Shown piece after piece: positions 28,880 to 37,340 of a stretch of DNA of 64,000 bases. This DNA comes from Myroides pelagicus (lineage in GTDB: Bacteria; Bacteroidota; Bacteroidia; Flavobacteriales; Flavobacteriaceae), in contig NZ_WMJY01000018.1 of assembly GCF_009711055.1 (NCBI RefSeq), forward strand, positions 1 through 64,000, read 5' to 3'. Position 1 is the stretch's first letter, and every line of letters begins with the position of its first letter. A program made the position numbers and the translations under genes. The notes under the pieces are model-generated. The model searched no databases. It was not told where the DNA came from and saw nothing but the letters and a program-made list of their open reading frames with translations.

Positions 28880-29476
28880 TTATTCTTCATGACGCTCTTT
28901 TAAGACAGACTCTATATCGCTCAATACAAAGCCTTTCGCCTTTAGAAGAATTAAGTAGTGATATAACAAATCCGCAGCTTCATTTTTAAACAATTCATCA
29001 TTATCATCTTTTGCTTCAATCACCACTTCAACAGCCTCTTCTCCAACTTTTTGAGCCACCTTATTAATACCTCGTTTATAAAGTTGGTTTGTATATGAGG
29101 ACTCAACATTGTTATCTATGCGTTCACTGATAATTTGTTCTAAGGTATATACAAAGCCTTTATCGTTTATTTTACCAAAACAAGAAGTACTTCCAGTATG
29201 ACAGGTAGCTCCTATCGCCTGTACTGTGATTAAAAGACAATCCTTATCACAATCCGTCTTAATCTCCTTTACTAATAAATAATTGCCCGAAGTCTCCCCT
29301 TTAGTCCACAATCTATTCTTAGTACGACTAAAGAAAGTAACCTTTCTTTCTGCTACCGTTTGTTCATAAGCCTCTTCATTCATATACCCCTGCATCAACA
29401 CCTGCAAAGAGTCTTTATCTTGCACAATAACAGGTACTAATCCATTTCCTTTTTGAAAGTCTATTTCTAATTTCAT
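28880..29476 (-). CDS. hisIE: bifunctional phosphoribosyl-AMP cyclohydrolase / phosphoribosyl-ATP pyrophosphatase
   Basis: 198 residues from the chosen ATG at 29476, which overlaps the hisF stop as ATGA; an in-frame ATG at 29485 would add MRK. The N-terminal HisI domain has the zinc/active-site segments FFSRTKNRLWTKGETSG and the Cys-rich DCDKDCLL and GATCHTGSTSCF. The C-terminal HisE domain (about 105-198) has KVGEEAVEVVIEAK. These catalyse histidine steps 2 and 3. It is the last gene of the operon and ends before the bidirectional terminator at 28815-28847. Fusion of I and E is usual in Bacteroidota. Confidence 0.95.
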   Translation of the reverse strand: MKLEIDFQKGNGLVPVIVQDKDSLQVLMQGYMNEEAYEQTVAERKVTFFSRTKNRLWTKGETSGNYLLVKEIKTDCDKDCLLITVQAIGATCHTGSTSCFGKINDKGFVYTLEQIISERIDNNVESSYTNQLYKRGINKVAQKVGEEAVEVVIEAKDDNDELFKNEAADLLYHYLILLKAKGFVLSDIESVLKERHEE

Positions 29477-30225
29477 CTTACGCATATATTATTATTAATC
29501 AAATCCTGTTTCAGCTGTGAAACATTTACTTCTCCATAGTGAAAAATACTAGCAGCTAATGCACCTGTCGCTTTAGTTTGAGAAAATACTTCCACAAAAT
29601 GATTAATATTTCCAGCACCCCCAGAAGCTATAACAGGAATATTCACAATATCAGTCACTTCTGCTGTGATATCAAGTGCAAAACCATCTTTAGTACCATC
29701 ATTATTCATAGAGGTCAGCAGTATCTCTCCAGCACCCAATTGCTCAACTTGTTTTACCCAGTCAATCGTCTTTAACGAGGTCTTGATTCTCCCTCCAGCA
29801 CTATACACCCACCACTCATCATCTTCATACTTTGTATCGATAGCTACTACAGCACATTGACTACCTAACAGCTCAGCTATTTCACGAATAAGTTCAGGTC
29901 GTTTAATCGCGGCAGAATTAACACTTACTTTATCCGCTCCTGCTCGTACCAGATCTACAGCTTGCTCTTGAGTACTAATTCCTCCGCCAACTGTAAATGG
30001 TATATTAATTTGACTTGCTATTTCTGTAACCAAACTAATCAAAGTCTTTCGATTTTCAACTGTCGCAGTAATATCTAAAAAGACTAACTCATCTATTCCT
30101 TCATTAGCATAACGCTGCGCTAAGGATATTGGATCACCTGCTCGCTGAATATCAACGAAGTTGACTCCCTTAACGACTTCTCCATCTTGTATATCCATAC
30201 AAGCTATGATTCTATTCTTTAACAT
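29473..30225 (-). CDS. hisF: imidazole glycerol phosphate synthase, cyclase subunit
   Basis: 250-residue TIM barrel that uses ammonia from HisH to turn PRFAR into imidazole glycerol phosphate and AICAR. The signature N-terminus [19 protein letters not shown] holds the catalytic Asp, and [18 protein letters not shown] plus IASGGAGN follow as phosphate-binding and catalytic strands. It overlaps hisA by 7 bp and hisIE by 4 bp. AICAR released here feeds the purine pathway, whose purL gene lies just beyond the operon. Confidence 0.96.
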
Positions 30226-30932
30226 AATTCGCTTAATTCTTTGAGTGTTATTTTTTCTTCGTATATAGCCTTGCCGATAATCACTCCCTCACAGCCAATC
30301 TTTTTTAATGCATATAACTCCTCTACAGTAGTAAGCCCTCCACTTGCAATAAGTTTCACTTTACTATTAGATATTATCTCTTCATACAGTCCTATAGCAG
30401 GACCGTTAAGCATTCCATCTTTCTCTATATCTGTTACTATCGAATATTCCACTCCTTTTTGCTCATAAGATTGGATAAATGCTAATACCTCAGTATCAGT
30501 AGAGTCTAACCAGCCTTGAGTCATAATCTTGCGTTGTTTACAATCTGCTCCTAAGATCACTTTATCATTACCATATAAACTTAACCACTCAAGAAAAAGA
30601 TCAGGCTCTGTCGCTGCAATACTTCCCACTGTTACTTGTCTAGCTCCACTATTAAATGCAGTAGCAATATCAACTGTATTCTTTATTCCTCCTCCAAAAT
30701 CTATTTGCAAAGTAGTCTGAGTAGCTATTTGCTCTAAGGTCTTGGCATTCACTATTTTCTTAGACTTAGCCCCATCTAGGTCTACTACATGTAAATATTT
30801 TATTCCTGCATCTTCAAACTGTTTAGCTACTTCTACAGGATTAGTATTATATACCTTTGAAGTACTATAATCCCCTTTAGACAAGCGTACACACTTCCCA
30901 TTTATTATATCAATTGCTGGTATAATCCTCAT
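30219..30932 (-). CDS. hisA: ProFAR isomerase (phosphoribosylformimino-AICAR-P isomerase)
   Basis: 237-residue TIM-barrel isomerase for histidine step 4. The N-terminus [22 protein letters not shown] holds the first catalytic Asp (IDI), and the second half has [13 protein letters not shown] and LIASGGLTT (phosphate binding). It is homologous to HisF but distinguished by VRLSKGDYS. It overlaps hisH by 4 bp (ATGA) upstream and hisF by 7 bp downstream, consistent with tight translational coupling. Confidence 0.96.
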
Positions 30933-31510
30933 AATTCTAAAAAATTTTTTAATAATAACTCACCTATTTTACCTGATTTCTCTGGGTGAAACTGTACAGC
31001 GTAAAAGTTGTCTTTTTGTAAGGCTGCAGAAAAAGGCAGGATATAATCATTCACAGCAATAGTACAAGTATTCAAAGTCGCGTAATAACTATGCACATAA
31101 TAGAAATTATCTGCTTCTGCTATCCCCTCAAAAATGCTATCCCCTTCTAACAACTTAAAGTCATTCCACCCCATATGTGGAACGATCTCTAAGGGAGGAA
31201 ACTTCCTCACTACATTTGAGAAAACACCAATACCTTTGGTATTTCCTTCTTCACTAAAGGCACACATCAATTGCATTCCTAAGCAAATTCCTAATACTGG
31301 TTTTTTTAACTCTTTTATCACTTGATCTAAGCCCCGCTCAACCAAGTATTCCATAGCTGATGATGCTTCTCCCACTCCAGGAAAGATCACTTTATCTGCT
31401 GATTTTAGAATAGCTACATCATCTGTAACAATAGTCTTATAGCCCAATCGTTGAATAGCATTCTCAACAGATTGTACATTGCCTGCATTGTATTTTAGTA
31501 TTGCTATCAT
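30929..31510 (-). CDS. hisH: imidazole glycerol phosphate synthase, glutamine amidotransferase subunit
   Basis: 193-residue class I glutaminase that supplies ammonia to HisF. The N-terminus [21 protein letters not shown], oxyanion strand [10 protein letters not shown], nucleophile Cys in GICLGMQLM and the His/Glu pair in [12 protein letters not shown] are all present. It overlaps hisB by 4 bp and hisA by 4 bp. The HisH/HisF pair is encoded in one operon, with hisA between the two genes. Confidence 0.96.
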
Positions 31511-32598
31511 AGGATTCCTTTTGTACTAGGTATGTTATAATTCGTTGTTTGATTCACTGCCATTTTAATAGCCTTGGCAAATGCCTTGAAAATAGACTCT
31601 ATTTTGTGGTGTTCATTATCCCCCTCTACTTTAATGTTTAAGTTACAACTCGCTGCATCGCAAAAAGATTTAAAGAAATGATAAAACATTTCGGTAGGCA
31701 TATCTCCAACCCTTTCTCTTTTGAACTCCGCATCCCAAACTAACCAAGACCTACCTCCGAAGTCAATTGCTACCTGAGCGATACATTCATCCATTGGCAA
31801 CAAGAATCCATAACGTTCAATGCCTTTCTTTGTTCCTAATGCTTTTTTAAAAGCGGTTCCCAATGCAATAGCTGTATCCTCTATCGTGTGGTGTTCATCT
31901 ACTTGTAAATCACCTTTCACTTCTATCTTTAACCCAATATTACCGTGTCTGTTGATTTGTTCTAGCATGTGATCAAAAAAGCCCAAACCAGTATTAATCT
32001 TACAAACTTTAGCATTATCTAAATTGACTTCTATATCAATAGTTGTTTCATTTGTCTTTCTATACTCCTTACCAATTCGAGGTTGTTGTTTTAAAAACTG
32101 ATAAATCTCTTCCCAGTCCATTGTAGATAACGCAGCTCGATCATCATTGTCCTCATTGATATAAATAGCTTGACTACCTAAATTATCTGCTAGTTGTATA
32201 TCTGTCTGACGGTCACCCAATACAAATGAATTAACCAAATCGTATTCTCCGTAGACATACTTTCCTAACATTCCTAAGCCCGGTTTACGTGTTGGTTTAT
32301 TCTCATATTCAAAAGAATCATCTACATAAATATCTGTAAATACAACCCCTTCATCTGCTAACGTACTCAAGATGAAGTTCTGTACAGGCCAAAATGTCTC
32401 TTCAGGAAAGGAGTTGGTACCTAAACCATCTTGGTTACTAACTAAGACTAGTGTATAATCTAATTCACGTGCAATCTTAGACAAGCTAGAAATCACCTTT
32501 GGAAGGAACACTAATTTTTCAAAACTATCGATCTGAAAATCTTCAGGCTCTTTTATGATAGTTCCATCTCTATCAATAAATAATACTTTCTTTTTCAC
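31507..32598 (-). CDS. hisB: bifunctional histidinol-phosphatase / imidazoleglycerol-phosphate dehydratase
   Basis: 363 residues. The N-terminal HAD phosphatase domain (about 1-165) has the nucleophile motif FIDRDGTI and the KPGLGML lysine motif. The C-terminal IGP dehydratase domain (about 175-363) has the paired metal-binding motifs [12 protein letters not shown] and [15 protein letters not shown]. It covers two steps, IGP dehydration and histidinol-P dephosphorylation. The fused form is known in Enterobacteriaceae and Bacteroidota. Its start overlaps the hisC end by 26 bp, the largest overlap in the operon. Confidence 0.96.
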
Positions 32599-33637
32599 TG
32601 GTTATCGCTTTTAGTGCTGTTAATAATTGGTTATTTTCTTCTGGTAAACCTATAGATATACGCAGTGTATTATCAACTACTTTACTTCGGTTTCGGACTA
32701 TAATTTGTCGATTAATCAATTCCTCATACAACTGATTAGCATTGTTAAACTTAACTAAGAGATAGTTAGCATCTGAAGGATAAACCACTTGTGTAATTGA
32801 CAAATTCATCAGTGCATTTCTCACTCTTTCTTTTTCACTTAGAAGCAATGCAATTCTTTGATCAAATCCATCACTATCCCTTAATATTTCAATTGCTTGC
32901 TCTTGATTAATACTACTCAGATTATAAGGTGACTTAACTTTATTAAAAAAGTAAAGTAATTCTTCACTCATCCACGCTAAACCAATACGTAGACCTGCCA
33001 TTCCCCAGCCTTTAGACAAAGTTTGCAAAATGATTAAATTAGGATATTGAGCTAATGCTGCAAGCCAAGATGCTTCTTTGCTAAAATCAATATAAGCTTC
33101 ATCTAATATAACTATCCCTTTAAATTGCTCAAGTATTCGTGTAATGGTTTCTCTATTAATTAAGTTTCCTGTAGGATTATTTGGCGAACAAATAAACATA
33201 AGCTTTACAGCTTCATCTTTTAAATAAGGTTCTACAATTTTCGTATCAATCTGAAATTCACTATTCAAAGGAATCGTTATTAATTCTACAGCATTTACAT
33301 TAGCATAAACTTCATACATACCGTATGTTGGAGTAAACACAATAGCTTTATTCATATTGGGTTCACAAAAAATTCGAAAGGCTAAATCAATTGCTTCATC
33401 ACTCCCATTTCCTAAGAACAATTCCTTTACACTACCTCCTTTTATCTCACTGATTACTTCTTTCAATCGATTTTGATAAGGATCTGGATAACGATTAACC
33501 GTACCAAAAGGGTTCTCATTTGCATCTAAAAACACCCCCTTATCTCCTTTATATTCATCTCTAGCACTCGTATAAGGCGACAACTTAGCGATATTAGCTC
33601 TTACTAATTTACTAACATTTAAATTAACTCTACTCAT
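32573..33637 (-). CDS. hisC: histidinol-phosphate aminotransferase
   Basis: 354-residue fold-type I PLP enzyme that converts imidazole acetol phosphate to histidinol phosphate with glutamate. Motifs: DANENPFG (substrate loop), [17 protein letters not shown] and the PLP lysine in [13 protein letters not shown]. Length is normal. It overlaps hisD by 8 bp at its start and hisB by 26 bp at its end. Confidence 0.96.
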
Positions 33638-34919
33638 TACTTAGCTTTTTTAGTCGAATACTTACTGCATTTTTATGCGCAATTAATTGTTCTGCTTCAG
33701 CCATTACTTCAATTGCTTTTCCGATATTCTGCAATCCTTGCTTAGTCAATTGTTGGAAAGTAATTTTCTTAACAAAACTATCCACCGATACCCCACTATA
33801 GTTCTTCGCATATCCATTAGTAGGCAATGTGTGGTTAGTACCACTAGCATAATCACCTGCACTCTCACAAGAATATGCTCCTAAAAACACTGAGCCAGCG
33901 TTCACCACTAAATCAACATATTGTTCTGCATGATCAATATTCAAGATTAAGTGTTCTGGAGCATAAGCATTACTAAAAGCAATACACTCTTTCAAAGTAG
34001 CAAATTCAACCATCAGGCTATTATTTAAAGTTTGCTTTGCAAGTTCTTTTCTAGGCAATTCTTCCAGTTGCTTATTTATAGCCTCATTAACTTCTTCAAT
34101 TTTTTTTGTACTTGTAGTCACAAATACTACTTGACTATCAATACCGTGCTCAGCTTGTGACAATAAATCCGCAGCAATAAATTCAGCATCAGACTGTTCA
34201 TCTGCTATAATTAATACTTCGCTTGGTCCTGCAGGCATATCAATGGCTACTCCTTGTGTTTGCACAAGCTCCTTCGCTTTCGTTACATATTGATTTCCTG
34301 GTCCAAATATTTTATATACCTGAGGTACACTCTCTGTACCATAAGCCATTGCTGCAATAGCTTGAGCTCCTCCTATTTTAAAAATAGTATCTATTCCTAA
34401 ATATTGTGCTGCATACAGTACTACTTCATTTACTTTTCCTTGTTTATTACACGGAGTACACAACACAATTTGCTTACATCCGGCTATTTGGGCCGGAATG
34501 GCTAACATCAATAAAGTTGAAAATAATGGTGCTGTCCCTCCTGGAATATACAAGCCTACCCTTTCAATACCTACGCTTTTTCGCCAACAGTTTACACCAT
34601 CAGTGGTTTCAATTACTTCCTCCGTATGAACTTGAGACTGGTGAAATTTCTTTATATTACTCGCGGCAACTTCAATAGCTTGTTTTATCTCTTGACTAAC
34701 TAATTTAGATGATGCTTTCAACTCTTCTTGATTGACCTGTAGGTCAGTTAATTGCACTTCATCAAAAAGAGAAGTAAAACTTCGAATGGCCTCATCTCCT
34801 CTTAGCTTAACTTGATTAAGTATCATAGAGATACTTTCATTCAAACTTTCTGTTTTAATAGTTGGACGTTTAATTAACTGCTCCCATTCTTGAAAAGGTG
34901 GTTGATATATTGTTTTCAT
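33630..34919 (-). CDS. hisD: histidinol dehydrogenase
   Basis: 429-residue zinc and NAD enzyme that carries out the last two oxidations, histidinol to histidine. Visible motifs: YIPGGTAPLFSTLLM, GPGNQYVTKAK, DMPAGPSEVLIIAD, the zinc-site DLLSQAEHG, and SCESAGDYASGTNHTLPT near the C-terminus. Length fits the family. It starts 13 bp after hisG and overlaps hisC by 8 bp. Confidence 0.97.
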   Translation of the reverse strand: MKTIYQPPFQEWEQLIKRPTIKTESLNESISMILNQVKLRGDEAIRSFTSLFDEVQLTDLQVNQEELKASSKLVSQEIKQAIEVAASNIKKFHQSQVHTEEVIETTDGVNCWRKSVGIERVGLYIPGGTAPLFSTLLMLAIPAQIAGCKQIVLCTPCNKQGKVNEVVLYAAQYLGIDTIFKIGGAQAIAAMAYGTESVPQVYKIFGPGNQYVTKAKELVQTQGVAIDMPAGPSEVLIIADEQSDAEFIAADLLSQAEHGIDSQVVFVTTSTKKIEEVNEAINKQLEELPRKELAKQTLNNSLMVEFATLKECIAFSNAYAPEHLILNIDHAEQYVDLVVNAGSVFLGAYSCESAGDYASGTNHTLPTNGYAKNYSGVSVDSFVKKITFQQLTKQGLQNIGKAIEVMAEAEQLIAHKNAVSIRLKKLSNE

Positions 34920-34932
34920 AAGTCCTTTGTTT

Positions 34933-35790
34933 TTAATAAATCATTTTTTCAATTGGAGCAACTAAAATACCTTCTGCTCCTAGTCCTTTTAATTCATCTA
35001 TAATATCCCAAAACTGATCCTCTTGAATTACAGAGTGCAAACTACTCCACCCTTGATCTGCTAGTGGCAATATGGTCGGACTTTTCATTCCAGGAAGAAT
35101 AGCTATGATTTGTTCTAGTTTATCGTTAGGAGCATTTAAGAGAATATATTTGCGTTCTTTTGCATTTAGCACAGATTTAATACGAAACAATAGCTTATCT
35201 AGTAGAGCTTGCTTCTCTTGGTTTAAGCTTTGACTACTAATCAATATAGCTTGGCTATCTAAGACTTTTTCTACCTCTTTTAATCCATTAGACATCAGTG
35301 TAGAGCCACTGCTTACAATATCACAAACACCGTTTGCTAGGCCAATACTAGGAGCAATTTCAACACTTCCAGAAATAAATTCTATAGAGGCATTTACGTT
35401 CTTCTCTTTTAAGTATTGTTCTAAAATAAAAGGATAGGAAGTAGCTATTTTTTTTCCTTCAAAATATTCAATTCCTCGGTAATCTTCACCTTTAGAAACA
35501 GCCAAGCTCAAACGGCAACTACCGAAGCCCAAATACTCTAAAACGTTAACTGGTAAGTTTGCTTCTAAATACACGTTCTCACCAATAATACCGATATCCG
35601 CAACTTGTTGTTCTACATACTTTGTAACATCGTCATCGCGTAAAAACAATACCTCGATTGGAAAATTCTTACTTTCAGCTATTAATTTACCTCCACCATT
35701 AGGAAATTTAATGCCACATTCTTTTAATAATTCTAGGGATTTTTCACTTAAACGCCCACTTTTCTGAATTGCAATTTTTAATTTACTCAT
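34933..35790 (-). CDS. hisG: ATP phosphoribosyltransferase, long form
   Basis: 285-residue long-form HisG: the committed step joining PRPP and ATP, with a C-terminal regulatory domain (about 215-285) for histidine feedback, so no HisZ is needed. The N-terminus KLKIAIQKSGRLSEKSLELL is typical, and phosphoribosyl-binding SGSTLMSNGLK is present. It is the first structural gene of hisGDCBHAFI. Upstream is a leader with five His codons and a terminator hairpin, so transcription into hisG is probably controlled by attenuation in addition to enzyme feedback. Confidence 0.96.
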   Translation of the reverse strand: MSKLKIAIQKSGRLSEKSLELLKECGIKFPNGGGKLIAESKNFPIEVLFLRDDDVTKYVEQQVADIGIIGENVYLEANLPVNVLEYLGFGSCRLSLAVSKGEDYRGIEYFEGKKIATSYPFILEQYLKEKNVNASIEFISGSVEIAPSIGLANGVCDIVSSGSTLMSNGLKEVEKVLDSQAILISSQSLNQEKQALLDKLLFRIKSVLNAKERKYILLNAPNDKLEQIIAILPGMKSPTILPLADQGWSSLHSVIQEDQFWDIIDELKGLGAEGILVAPIEKMIY

Positions 35791-35806
35791 ATTATTTTAG
35801 ATTAAA

Positions 35807-35819
35807 GTCTGAGTAAATC
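35807..35819 (-). promoter_or_regulatory. segment complementary to the attenuator loop
   Basis: On the transcript this 13-nt segment can pair with 35868-35880, which forms the loop and part of the stem of the attenuator hairpin; one G-U pair. It lies just upstream of hisG, beyond the terminator, and could form an alternative structure once transcription has read through. Confidence 0.4.
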
Positions 35820-35853
35820 GATAGGAAGTATCAAATAGCAATAGGCTTAAAAC

Positions 35854-35885
35854 AAAAAATCCCGTCTGATTTACTCAAACGGGAT
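35854..35885 (-). terminator. his attenuator hairpin
   Basis: Intrinsic terminator within the leader. The transcript has ATCCCGT pairing with ACGGGAT (35879-35885 with 35859-35865), a 13-nt loop and a run of six Us. It sits between the leader peptide stop and hisG, 64 bp upstream of the hisG start, as expected for ribosome-mediated attenuation. Confidence 0.8.
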
Positions 35886-35919
35886 AATTAGATATTTTTG
35901 ATTCAAATACACCATATCA

Positions 35920-35979
35920 TTACCAGCTCGTAAGAGTACAAGTAGAATGATGATGATGATGTAATTGACTTGAATACAT
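35920..35979 (-). CDS. hisL: his operon leader peptide
   Basis: A 19-codon ORF (MYSSQLHHHHHSTCTLTSW) with five consecutive CAT histidine codons at positions 7-11, ending TAA and immediately backed by an overlapping TGA. It lies between a good -7 box (36002-36009) and the attenuator hairpin at 35859-35885, upstream of hisG. By analogy with enterobacterial hisL, ribosome stalling on the His codons when charged tRNA-His is scarce should change leader folding and let transcription continue. The peptide sequence itself is unlike E. coli HisL apart from the His run. The initiation signal is not obvious, which is normal in Bacteroidota. Confidence 0.8.
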   Translation of the reverse strand: MYSSQLHHHHHSTCTLTSW

Positions 35980-36001
35980 GTTTTCCTATTTTTTGACATT
36001 T

Positions 36002-36009
36002 CAAATGTA
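36002..36009 (-). promoter_or_regulatory. -7 box of the his operon
   Basis: Minus-strand TACATTTG, 22 bp upstream of the leader start codon, with TTTTTTG-type elements 15 and 22 bp further upstream that could serve as -33. Confidence 0.55.
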
Positions 36010-36107
36010 GGTATTTTTTCATTACAAAAAACAAAAAACAACCATTTATTTCAATTTTTTTTTAATGTAATTAACAAAAACCTAATAAACACAAGGGCTA
36101 AGAACCT

Positions 36108-37340
36108 TTACTTTTTTTGATAAAATTGAGCCATTTTATCCATTATTAAGTTAAATTGCACATCTACTTCCTCTGCGTTTTTACTAGTCAATGGAAAAGG
36201 AACCATATGAGAATACTTAAAAGGAAAGTCAAAAATGTTTACATCTATCGCAATATCTCTATAAGGTCCTTTCAGCATATTTAATGCTTCTACTGGTGGT
36301 GCAACCTCATCTGTTTTTAGATTTATAGACAATATTTGCTTCTCTAATTCTCTTAAACGACTCTCTCGCTCACCTTGAAAGTGGTTGTAGCGAAGCATTG
36401 TTTTAAACCAACTTTCACCAGGATGCAATACACGATCTTGATAGTGGTTAAGACGAGATTCTGCAGCAAAATTCGTAGTCAATAACTGAGCAAATATCTT
36501 TTGCATCATTATAGTTGCCCTACCATCCATAATATATTTAGACACTGGAAACATACGATCTATAGTCATTCCTCCACAAAAACAAACTAACTTGGCTTGT
36601 GATAATATTCCAAGAGGGTTTGCCATCATTAATATAATAGAAAGAAATGATCCTATGGAATAACCAAACAAATCAATGGTCGCTCTAGGCGAAAGCACAT
36701 CAAATGCTCCAGCGCGCAAAGCTCTTTCCCAATCTATAAAATCGTAATAAGTCTGTAAACCCGACCAAAACATTCGTTGTGGATGTGCTTCCATACGTGT
36801 ACTAATAGCTGCATTAACATAGCTACTATCCGAATTTTGTTTCCAATCTGCTGCACGCTTTTGTGCTATTTCAAACATCAATTTACGATCAGACCACTGC
36901 CATGGTGTACGATCCATATGAAAGCTAATAGGAAACAAAACAACAGCCTTTCCTGTCCGCTTAGTCAAAGCATAAGCCCACGGCAAATACTTGTCCCATT
37001 TCTTCTCATTCAACCCGTGATACATTACTATAACCTCATCACATACAGGCTTATCCATTGGTTTTACAACCGCTATCGTATAATTTAAATTTTCTTTTAC
37101 ACTATAGTCTGGAACATCTAATAGCGTATCAGTATCTTCCGTGTACTTCACAAAGGACTCCTCTAACTCTTCTTGATGAGCTGAACAAAACAGCCGCTCT
37201 GATCCAATTAAAATACCATCTGCTTGTTTCGAAAAAAAAGGATACTTGTGAATCTCTACTCCTAATACGTCGTCTTTTACAACATCAGAGTCTTGTTGAA
37301 AGAGTTGTTTTAACCTTTCGTGAATTTGGTAGTAATGCAT
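36108..37340 (-). CDS. alpha/beta-hydrolase-like protein (possibly DUF6051)
   Basis: 410-residue soluble protein with an alpha/beta hydrolase core. It shows VIVMYHGLNEKKWDKYLPW (oxyanion-type HG), AVVLFPISFHMDRTPW, and a nucleophile elbow FGYSIGSFLS (GxSxG, Ser near residue 225). A C-terminal His in KYSHMVPFP could complete a triad. I associate this layout with the uncharacterised DUF6051 family, with moderate certainty. There is no signal peptide. It is on the same strand as the his operon but 128 bp upstream of the leader peptide and with its own stop, so it is separate. The substrate is unknown. Confidence 0.65.
   Translation of the reverse strand: MHYYQIHERLKQLFQQDSDVVKDDVLGVEIHKYPFFSKQADGILIGSERLFCSAHQEELEESFVKYTEDTDTLLDVPDYSVKENLNYTIAVVKPMDKPVCDEVIVMYHGLNEKKWDKYLPWAYALTKRTGKAVVLFPISFHMDRTPWQWSDRKLMFEIAQKRAADWKQNSDSSYVNAAISTRMEAHPQRMFWSGLQTYYDFIDWERALRAGAFDVLSPRATIDLFGYSIGSFLSIILMMANPLGILSQAKLVCFCGGMTIDRMFPVSKYIMDGRATIMMQKIFAQLLTTNFAAESRLNHYQDRVLHPGESWFKTMLRYNHFQGERESRLRELEKQILSINLKTDEVAPPVEALNMLKGPYRDIAIDVNIFDFPFKYSHMVPFPLTSKNAEEVDVQFNLIMDKMAQFYQKK

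Follow-up and report, generated by a model that had tools for sequence, protein, structure and literature searches.

A probable histidine attenuator before hisG of Myroides pelagicus, with a co-varying segment complementary to both the terminator 5′ arm and the hisG start

Attenuation of the histidine operon in Escherichia coli and Salmonella is textbook knowledge. In the excerpted accounts of their hisL leader (PMC3896937, PMC9413887), a leader peptide with a histidine run and mutually exclusive antiterminator and terminator structures precede the his operon, and for the complete his mRNA of both organisms no translational regulation has been reported, according to the excerpt of PMC3896937. 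Histidine attenuators of Firmicutes, as extracted from PMC9413887, likewise comprise His-leader peptides and alternative hairpins, at loci where the Rfam model RF00514 finds nothing. In Bacillus subtilis, two leaders of antibiotic resistance genes are known to attenuate transcription as well as translation. At vmlR, the excerpt of PMC9226507 describes a ribosome stalled on an upstream ORF that brings about antitermination, and a pairing in the readthrough RNA that is proposed to disrupt a hairpin sequestering the Shine-Dalgarno sequence; at tlrB (yxjB), the excerpt of PMC6851288 describes transcription attenuation together with translation attenuation of the non-terminated RNAs. Within the Bacteroidota, a Flavobacterium transcriptome paper names, in its extracted text, a conserved structured element 5′ of hisG in Flavobacterium psychrophilum and other Flavobacteriaceae, and reports the group to lack Shine-Dalgarno sequences (PMC9723704).

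Here, we analyzed the leader of the his operon in a 64,000-nucleotide stretch of Myroides pelagicus DNA (NZ_WMJY01000018.1; this whole stretch is "the window"). Like hisL (RF00514) as excerpted, it has a His-run leader peptide and alternative antiterminator and terminator structures upstream of the his operon; unlike hisL, it has an extra segment—segment 5—by which terminator strand and hisG start codon appear to be joined. With the Firmicutes attenuators it shares a His leader and alternative hairpins outside RF00514, although those belong to another phylum, the excerpt describes no start-codon element for them and the string "bacteroid" is absent from the extracted text of PMC9413887. The likeness to vmlR, in the portion extracted, lies in stalled-ribosome antitermination and in a readthrough pairing proposed to open a sequestering hairpin; vmlR, however, is antibiotic-induced and Shine-Dalgarno-based, whereas the window has an amino-acid leader and involves the terminator's own 5′ arm. 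As at tlrB, a single leader is tentatively proposed here to attenuate both transcription and translation, yet tlrB is tylosin-dependent and its stalled ribosome, per the excerpt, itself blocks both hairpins. Unlike our account of the window, the extracted text of PMC9723704 describes the hisG element without anatomy, antiterminator or start-codon link. A link between terminator strand and start codon in a his operon was absent from the titles and abstract beginnings of the open-licence PMC articles that our searches listed. Against Rfam His_leader (RF00514), the window scores 34.3 bits (E 4e-4), below the gathering threshold of 49 bits; at gathering, Rfam gave no match in the window nor in any of 20 related loci. 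Membership in RF00514 was therefore rejected and the sub-threshold match taken as likeness of form only. No T-box was among the 14 Rfam matches up to E 10 in 35780-36060.

The features of the locus are collected in Table 1. The earlier note on this DNA had placed the promoter-type box, a 19-codon ORF with five CAT codons, a terminator and hisG in this order, and its coordinates hold to the base. On the minus strand, the leader ORF begins with ATG at 35979 and ends with TAA at 35920, and a TGA adjoins directly (through 35917)—the double stop that had been read as closing the peptide. An intrinsic terminator stem-loop follows on the same strand (35885-35859, plus a T-run), and then the genes hisG-D-C-B-H-A-F-IE, with the hisG ATG at 35790. 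HisG is 91.6–93.7% identical to that of the Myroides loci L002–L005. The 410-residue protein encoded upstream of the leader (36108-37340, minus strand) matched no NCBIfam model at E 1e-10.

Table 1. Features of the his leader and operon in the window.
Feature	Coordinates	Strand	Basis or remark
Promoter-type box, TACATTTG	36002-36009	-	Read from sequence
his leader peptide gene, MYSSQLHHHHHSTCTLTSW, 19 codons, His codons 7-11	35920-35979	-	Translation
Segments 1:2, predicted long hairpin over the His codons without a ribosome	35903-35968	-	MFE fold
Segment 2, predicted antiterminator 5′ strand, UACUCUUACGAGCUGGUAAU	35919-35938	-	Fold with a ribosome stalled on the His run
Segment 3, terminator 5′ arm, AUCCCGUUUGA	35875-35885	-	Fold, alignment
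GUUUGAGUAAAUC, segment 3 arm and loop part able to pair with segment 5	35880-35868	-	
Segment 4, terminator 3′ arm, U-run next	35859-35869	-	Fold, alignment
Segment 5, GAUUUACUCAGAC	35807-35819	-	17-29 nt before hisG
Segment 6, hisG start, AUGAGUAAAUU	35780-35790	-	Would pair with segment 5 at 35789-35780
hisG, ATP phosphoribosyltransferase	34933-35790	-	TIGR00070 and TIGR03455 above cut-off
hisD, hisC, bifunctional hisB, hisH, hisA, hisF, hisIE, contiguous	28880-34919	-	NCBIfam models above cut-off

For comparison, we assembled the 236 loci whose HisG is most like that of the window, with the upstream DNA oriented by tblastn: the best 80 of 149 HisG-similar loci, 67 loci from the genus (HisG in 68 of 101 genomes) and 89 further, better-scoring loci from the phylum (HisG in 252 of 296 genomes). 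Leaders were counted in 230 of the 236, as two had no HisG match, three were identical and one had a short upstream region. A terminator was detected in 174 of 231 loci, 153 of which were used for the 3:5 helix search; by type, the 231 comprised 102 with a terminator resembling the window's (arm-type loci), 72 with other terminator types and 57 with none detected. From the arm-type loci, 53 were chosen for diversity and aligned, all of them with a 3:5 helix.

Of 230 distinct Bacteroidota loci, 207 have a short ORF with a histidine run (at least three His in five codons) before hisG, and 168 have one with a stricter run of at least four His. The controls gave 5/130 at −900 to −450, 1/230 on the reverse strand and 100/4600 in dinucleotide shuffles; in 23 of the 230 loci, no short ORF with at least three His in five codons was found before hisG. 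The earlier note had suggested a comparison of leader peptides across Flavobacteriaceae, and the His run proves to be kept far beyond that family. Region 35840-35996 folds at −44.5 kcal/mol, compared with −23.35 ± 3.32 for shuffles (z −6.37), and this value and the leader counts bear out the claim that the arrangement lies beyond chance. Among the arm-type loci, 101 of 102 have an ATG-started His leader of 14–21 codons, and in 89 of these 101 TANNTTTG occurs at most 60 nt upstream of the leader ATG (mononucleotide shuffles: 74/2020). This motif is the consensus for TACATTTG, which we take to be a −7 promoter box of the Bacteroidota type, and its conservation before the leader ATG argues against a transcription start downstream of 35920.

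Several loci show variations on this layout. In same-genus loci such as L121, L127 and L136, a second mini-ORF (MHVNHHILKPV) directly follows the leader stop; it may be a mere by-product of RNA constraint. Three Bacteroidales loci (L019, L024, L030) and one Bacteroidetes locus (L063) carry two His attenuators in series within at most 500 nt before hisG, in the order leader 1, terminator 1, leader 2, terminator 2, hisG. A leader and terminator of the window's type were also seen in loci labelled as belonging to other families, namely L012 (Taibaiella), L015 (Saprospiraceae) and L060 (a Cytophagaceae MAG), whose HisG proteins stand among Flavobacteriaceae rows of the tree at weakly supported forks; either the operon was transferred together with its leader, or these are mislabelled bins.

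The terminator helix is paired in 99.8% of the cells of the 53-locus alignment. Covariance folding of the leader had been proposed as a check, and the terminator does co-vary: double-sided changes fill 29 cells compared with 7.1 in shuffled alignments (covariation score 0.224), and the counts by pairs with double changes and by pair types are within the shuffles (267 and 238 of 500). To fold the RNA with a stalled ribosome, we assumed that the ribosome's front lies 12 nt downstream of where the A-site codon begins. In the RNA up to the terminator loop, a stretch overlapping the end of the leader ORF (segment 2) is then predicted to pair with the terminator 5′ arm (segment 3) for a stall on any His codon; the resulting antiterminator is worth −14.4 kcal/mol when one of His codons 1–4 occupies the A site and −11.2 kcal/mol when His5 does. 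At the leader stop codon the fold is worth −1.5 kcal/mol and, in this prediction, the antiterminator 2:3 is not formed. In ribosome-free RNA, segments 1 and 2 pair with each other in the MFE fold. These three predicted states are those that an attenuator of the hisL type should adopt.

In many relatives the antiterminator pairs CUCAAGCG with CGUUUGAG. A 2:3 helix score of at least 16 is reached by 91 of the 102 arm-type loci, compared with 12% of shuffled upstream regions and 81% of mismatched loci, the last value being that high because the motif itself is conserved. The listed Myroides rows score just 12–13.5 as ungapped helices because of a UU/UU gap: a UU/UU loop interrupts their 2:3 helix, and GGUAAU:AUUAUC extends it. 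Since the terminator is the more stable fold once segment 4 is present, antitermination must be a kinetic decision.

From these predictions a course of events may be proposed in which transcription would begin just past TACATTTG and a ribosome would translate the leader. Were charged tRNA-His short, the ribosome would stall on the CAT run and leave segment 2 free for segment 3; with 2:3 formed, the terminator 3:4 would come too late and RNA polymerase would continue into hisG. Were histidine ample, a ribosome at the stop would cover segment 2 and 3:4 would terminate transcription, and likewise without a ribosome, when 1:2 would form. Leader, terminator, predicted antiterminator and the conservation of the His run all agree with the ribosome-mediated his attenuation put forward in the earlier note, and we consider it very probable that the his operon is under such transcription attenuation. 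That earlier account was incomplete, as the antiterminator and segment 5 were absent from it. The attenuator itself is not new, because the extracted text of the Flavobacterium transcriptome paper already names a conserved element 5′ of hisG (PMC9723704).

Segment 5 is complementary to segment 3 plus the loop over 13 pairs and to the hisG start over 10 pairs, the latter pairing having come up in folds of longer RNAs. Given that it complements both the terminator loop and the start codon, these two share one sequence and are competitors for a single complement. A 3:5 helix score of at least 20 was reached by 64% of the 153 loci with a terminator (mismatched 21%, shuffled 0.7%) and by 92 of the 102 arm-type loci (mismatched 46%, shuffled 1%), leaving ten arm-type loci without a 3:5 helix at this score. 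As the high mismatched values show what conservation alone yields, co-variation was tested directly (see below). Codon 2 of hisG is AGT in 82 of the 102 arm-type loci; the background count included hisG itself, so that this figure is uninformative for 5:6. A pseudoknot of the terminator loop with an intact stem was rejected as the main reading, since 3:5 also uses stem bases and the loop of L060 has only 3 nt.

As a control, 30 trpE and ilvD loci from the window's genome and its relatives were taken; five trpE loci were dropped for want of an ATG and 16 terminators were found, none of which reaches a 3:5 score of 20 (maximum 16). Among the loci with other terminator types, five reach this score: in L024 and L030 the partner is the arm of a second terminator, in L035 and L167 it is over 90 nt away from hisG, and L028 stands as an exception. 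Segment 5 thus goes with the window's terminator type. Individual loci differ in what segment 5 matches: L057 (Winogradskyella), L060 and L170 keep 3:5 with a segment 5 that is a poor match to the hisG start, and in L011 and L164 segment 5 tracks the start codon and not segment 3. As for the other leaders of the window's genome, trpE (L248) is preceded by a Trp leader, MNISILNTNWWWLSKSNLGFSWLWCVLR, with WWW and ilvD (L260) by a branched-chain leader, MRNLVSILVVLIIVIVINTFAREPLC, rich in I, L and V, each with a terminator after it.

For the direct comparison, segment 5 was anchored by the terminator arm and the start by its AUG. Anchoring failed in 14 of the 102 arm-type loci and the remaining 88—some of which (e.g. 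L105, L118, L211) were anchored at a site differing from that of the 3:5 helix search—yielded 65 distinct triples. By fraction of cells, the loop columns of segments 3 and 5 are paired at 0.785, compared with 0.643 when permuted; the start and segment 5 at 0.827 compared with 0.776 (columns 0-8) and at 0.749 compared with 0.672 (columns 3-8); and the likeness of terminator loop and start codon is 0.792 within loci and 0.701 between them, with none of 1000 permutations reaching the observed value in any of these cases. The window itself has AGTAAA in loop, element and start. Several members of its GTDB genus (L094, L100, L103) have AGTACA in all three segments, L131 and L206 have AGTATA in loop and element and AGTATT in the start, and L027 has AACAAA in element and start and AGCAAA in the loop.

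In the 53 aligned loci, 3:5 is paired in 90.7% of cells, a value biased upward in that all rows were chosen with a 3:5 helix, and 5:6 in 84.5%. With kinship not removed, double-sided changes fill 43 cells for 3:5, compared with 13.8 ± 2.5 in shuffled and 2–15 in slid alignments, and 33 cells for 5:6, compared with 15.8 ± 2.8 and 8–23. The covariation scores are 0.284 for 3:5 (shuffles 0.166, slid at most 0.066) and 0.233 for 5:6 (shuffles 0.149, slid at most 0.107); by pairs with double changes (145/500 shuffles) and by pair types (51/500), 5:6 does not stand out. On the HisG tree, counted over 45 of its 50 rows, pair-keeping double changes number 8 for 3:5 against 0–2 in slid registers, 5 against 0–2 for its loop columns alone and 3 against 0–1 for 5:6; one event each of 3:5 and 5:6 falls in L084, a locus without a 3:5 helix. 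We conclude that the terminator:element pairing 3:5 is well supported as real and the start-codon pairing 5:6 supported more weakly, and that the three-way pairing of segments 3, 5 and 6 is probably genuine.

It is this co-variation that bears on the first alternative, a plain his attenuator in which segments 5 and 6 would take no part in regulation and their complementarity would stem from conservation and shared ancestry. The classical logic is complete without segment 5, the full RNA at equilibrium leaves 3:5 empty, and conserved motifs alone bring nearly half of the mismatched locus pairs to the 3:5 threshold, as given above. However, the loop bases change along with the site before hisG beyond permuted, shuffled and slid controls, and the trpE and ilvD terminators hold no comparable element in any of the 16 cases; we know of no other reason for terminator loop bases to change together with that site. 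We regard the plain attenuator as a serious possibility, if one clearly short of even.

The computed energies bear on how segment 5 might be used. Of 88 loci, 83 have a best 5:6 helix that reaches the AUG, and over these 83 the mean energies are −17.5 kcal/mol for 3:4, −12.5 for 3:5 and −6.4 for 5:6; the terminator stem of the window is worth −16.6 kcal/mol. The computed stability of 3:5 exceeds that of 5:6 in 86 of 88 loci (exceptions: L011 and L164), and 3:4 is weaker than 3:5 in five (L027, L165, L197, L201, L202). By this order the terminator would come first, a segment 3 spared from segment 4 would take segment 5, and otherwise segment 5 would take the start codon. When segment 4 was blocked, the MFE structure was 3:5 in 11/11 examples that included 9 nt of hisG and in 9/11 that included 28 nt; the AUG is then often drawn into another weak hairpin, and its mean chance of being unpaired goes from 0.37 to 0.44 (83 loci). 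Full-length RNA at equilibrium is predicted to hold 3:4 and 5:6 in all three ribosome states tried. Two conditions must coincide for the probability of 3:5 to climb to 0.60, a start codon not yet fully transcribed and a ribosome at the stop; in the stalled state it is 0.09. The predicted start-sequestering hairpin 5:6 stands at 0.91–0.98 once the RNA reaches 35780 or beyond. Because of this equilibrium return to 3:4 and 5:6, the proposed ON state could only be a kinetic one.

Such folds could also fit a second alternative, in which segment 5 is an anti-start hairpin only, 5:6 lowering hisG translation or coupling it to ribosomes and 3:5 just delaying its folding. The frequent contact of the best 5:6 with the AUG speaks for it, as do the transient population of 3:5 in the interval between synthesis of segment 5 and that of segment 6 and the two loci that favour 5:6 over 3:5 (L011, L164). 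Yet co-variation is stronger for 3:5 than for 5:6, loci with weak 5:6 (L057, L060, L170) keep 3:5, and 5:6 is without net stability in four of the 83 loci (L061, L084, L163, L173). We judge this alternative unlikely.

Small RNAs derived from attenuators act in trans in some bacteria, and the released, terminated leader RNA might similarly act on segment 5 of the hisG mRNA. The complementarity does join the terminated RNA to the translation start region of the longer one, but in the released RNA the terminator stem ties up the complementary bases, at the energy given above for the window, and we hold action in trans to be very improbable. That the terminator merely ends the upstream gene, with the short ORF incidental, is scarcely credible: although it is the first terminator-like site downstream of that gene on the same strand, a conserved promoter box lies between the two, and the His run and the co-varying terminator are tied to hisG across loci.

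We therefore return to attenuation combined with the three-way pairing, a joint reading that we consider likely. The transcription start, stalling, termination and the functions of 3:5 and 5:6 are what we infer from sequences and folds. Wherever a transcript escaped termination despite a formed terminator, segment 5 would cover the hisG AUG. Antitermination would instead leave segment 3, held off segment 4 by segment 2, to capture segment 5, with the AUG open; loop bases of segment 3 that the 2:3 helix leaves unpaired would offer segment 5 a place to dock. Segment 5 would then be a second, translational lock linked to antitermination, a function that we propose tentatively and at slightly less than even confidence, because full-length RNA settles into 3:4 and 5:6 at equilibrium, the AUG gains little on blocking segment 4 and 5:6 is poor in L057, L060 and L170. 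The most economical reading of such a lock is a leak-proof attenuator, with a closed start in leaked RNAs and an open one in antiterminated RNAs.

Overall, the attenuator is of an ordinary, known kind and the added co-varying start-codon element is the new part. Histidine attenuation of the textbook type stands before hisG in most of the sampled Bacteroidota loci, where it is missed by Rfam thresholds. The co-varying link between terminator loop and start codon makes it possible to test directly whether a single leader gates transcription as well as translation. The his attenuator of many Flavobacteriales may even be a relay—a reading to which we give a little under an even chance—in which a stall on the His codons spares the 5′ strand of the terminator, a copy of the hisG start, and this strand frees the AUG by capturing segment 5, while leaked transcripts stay closed. 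If so, a single strand of RNA would pass the outcome of transcriptional control on to translation in an operon for amino-acid biosynthesis.
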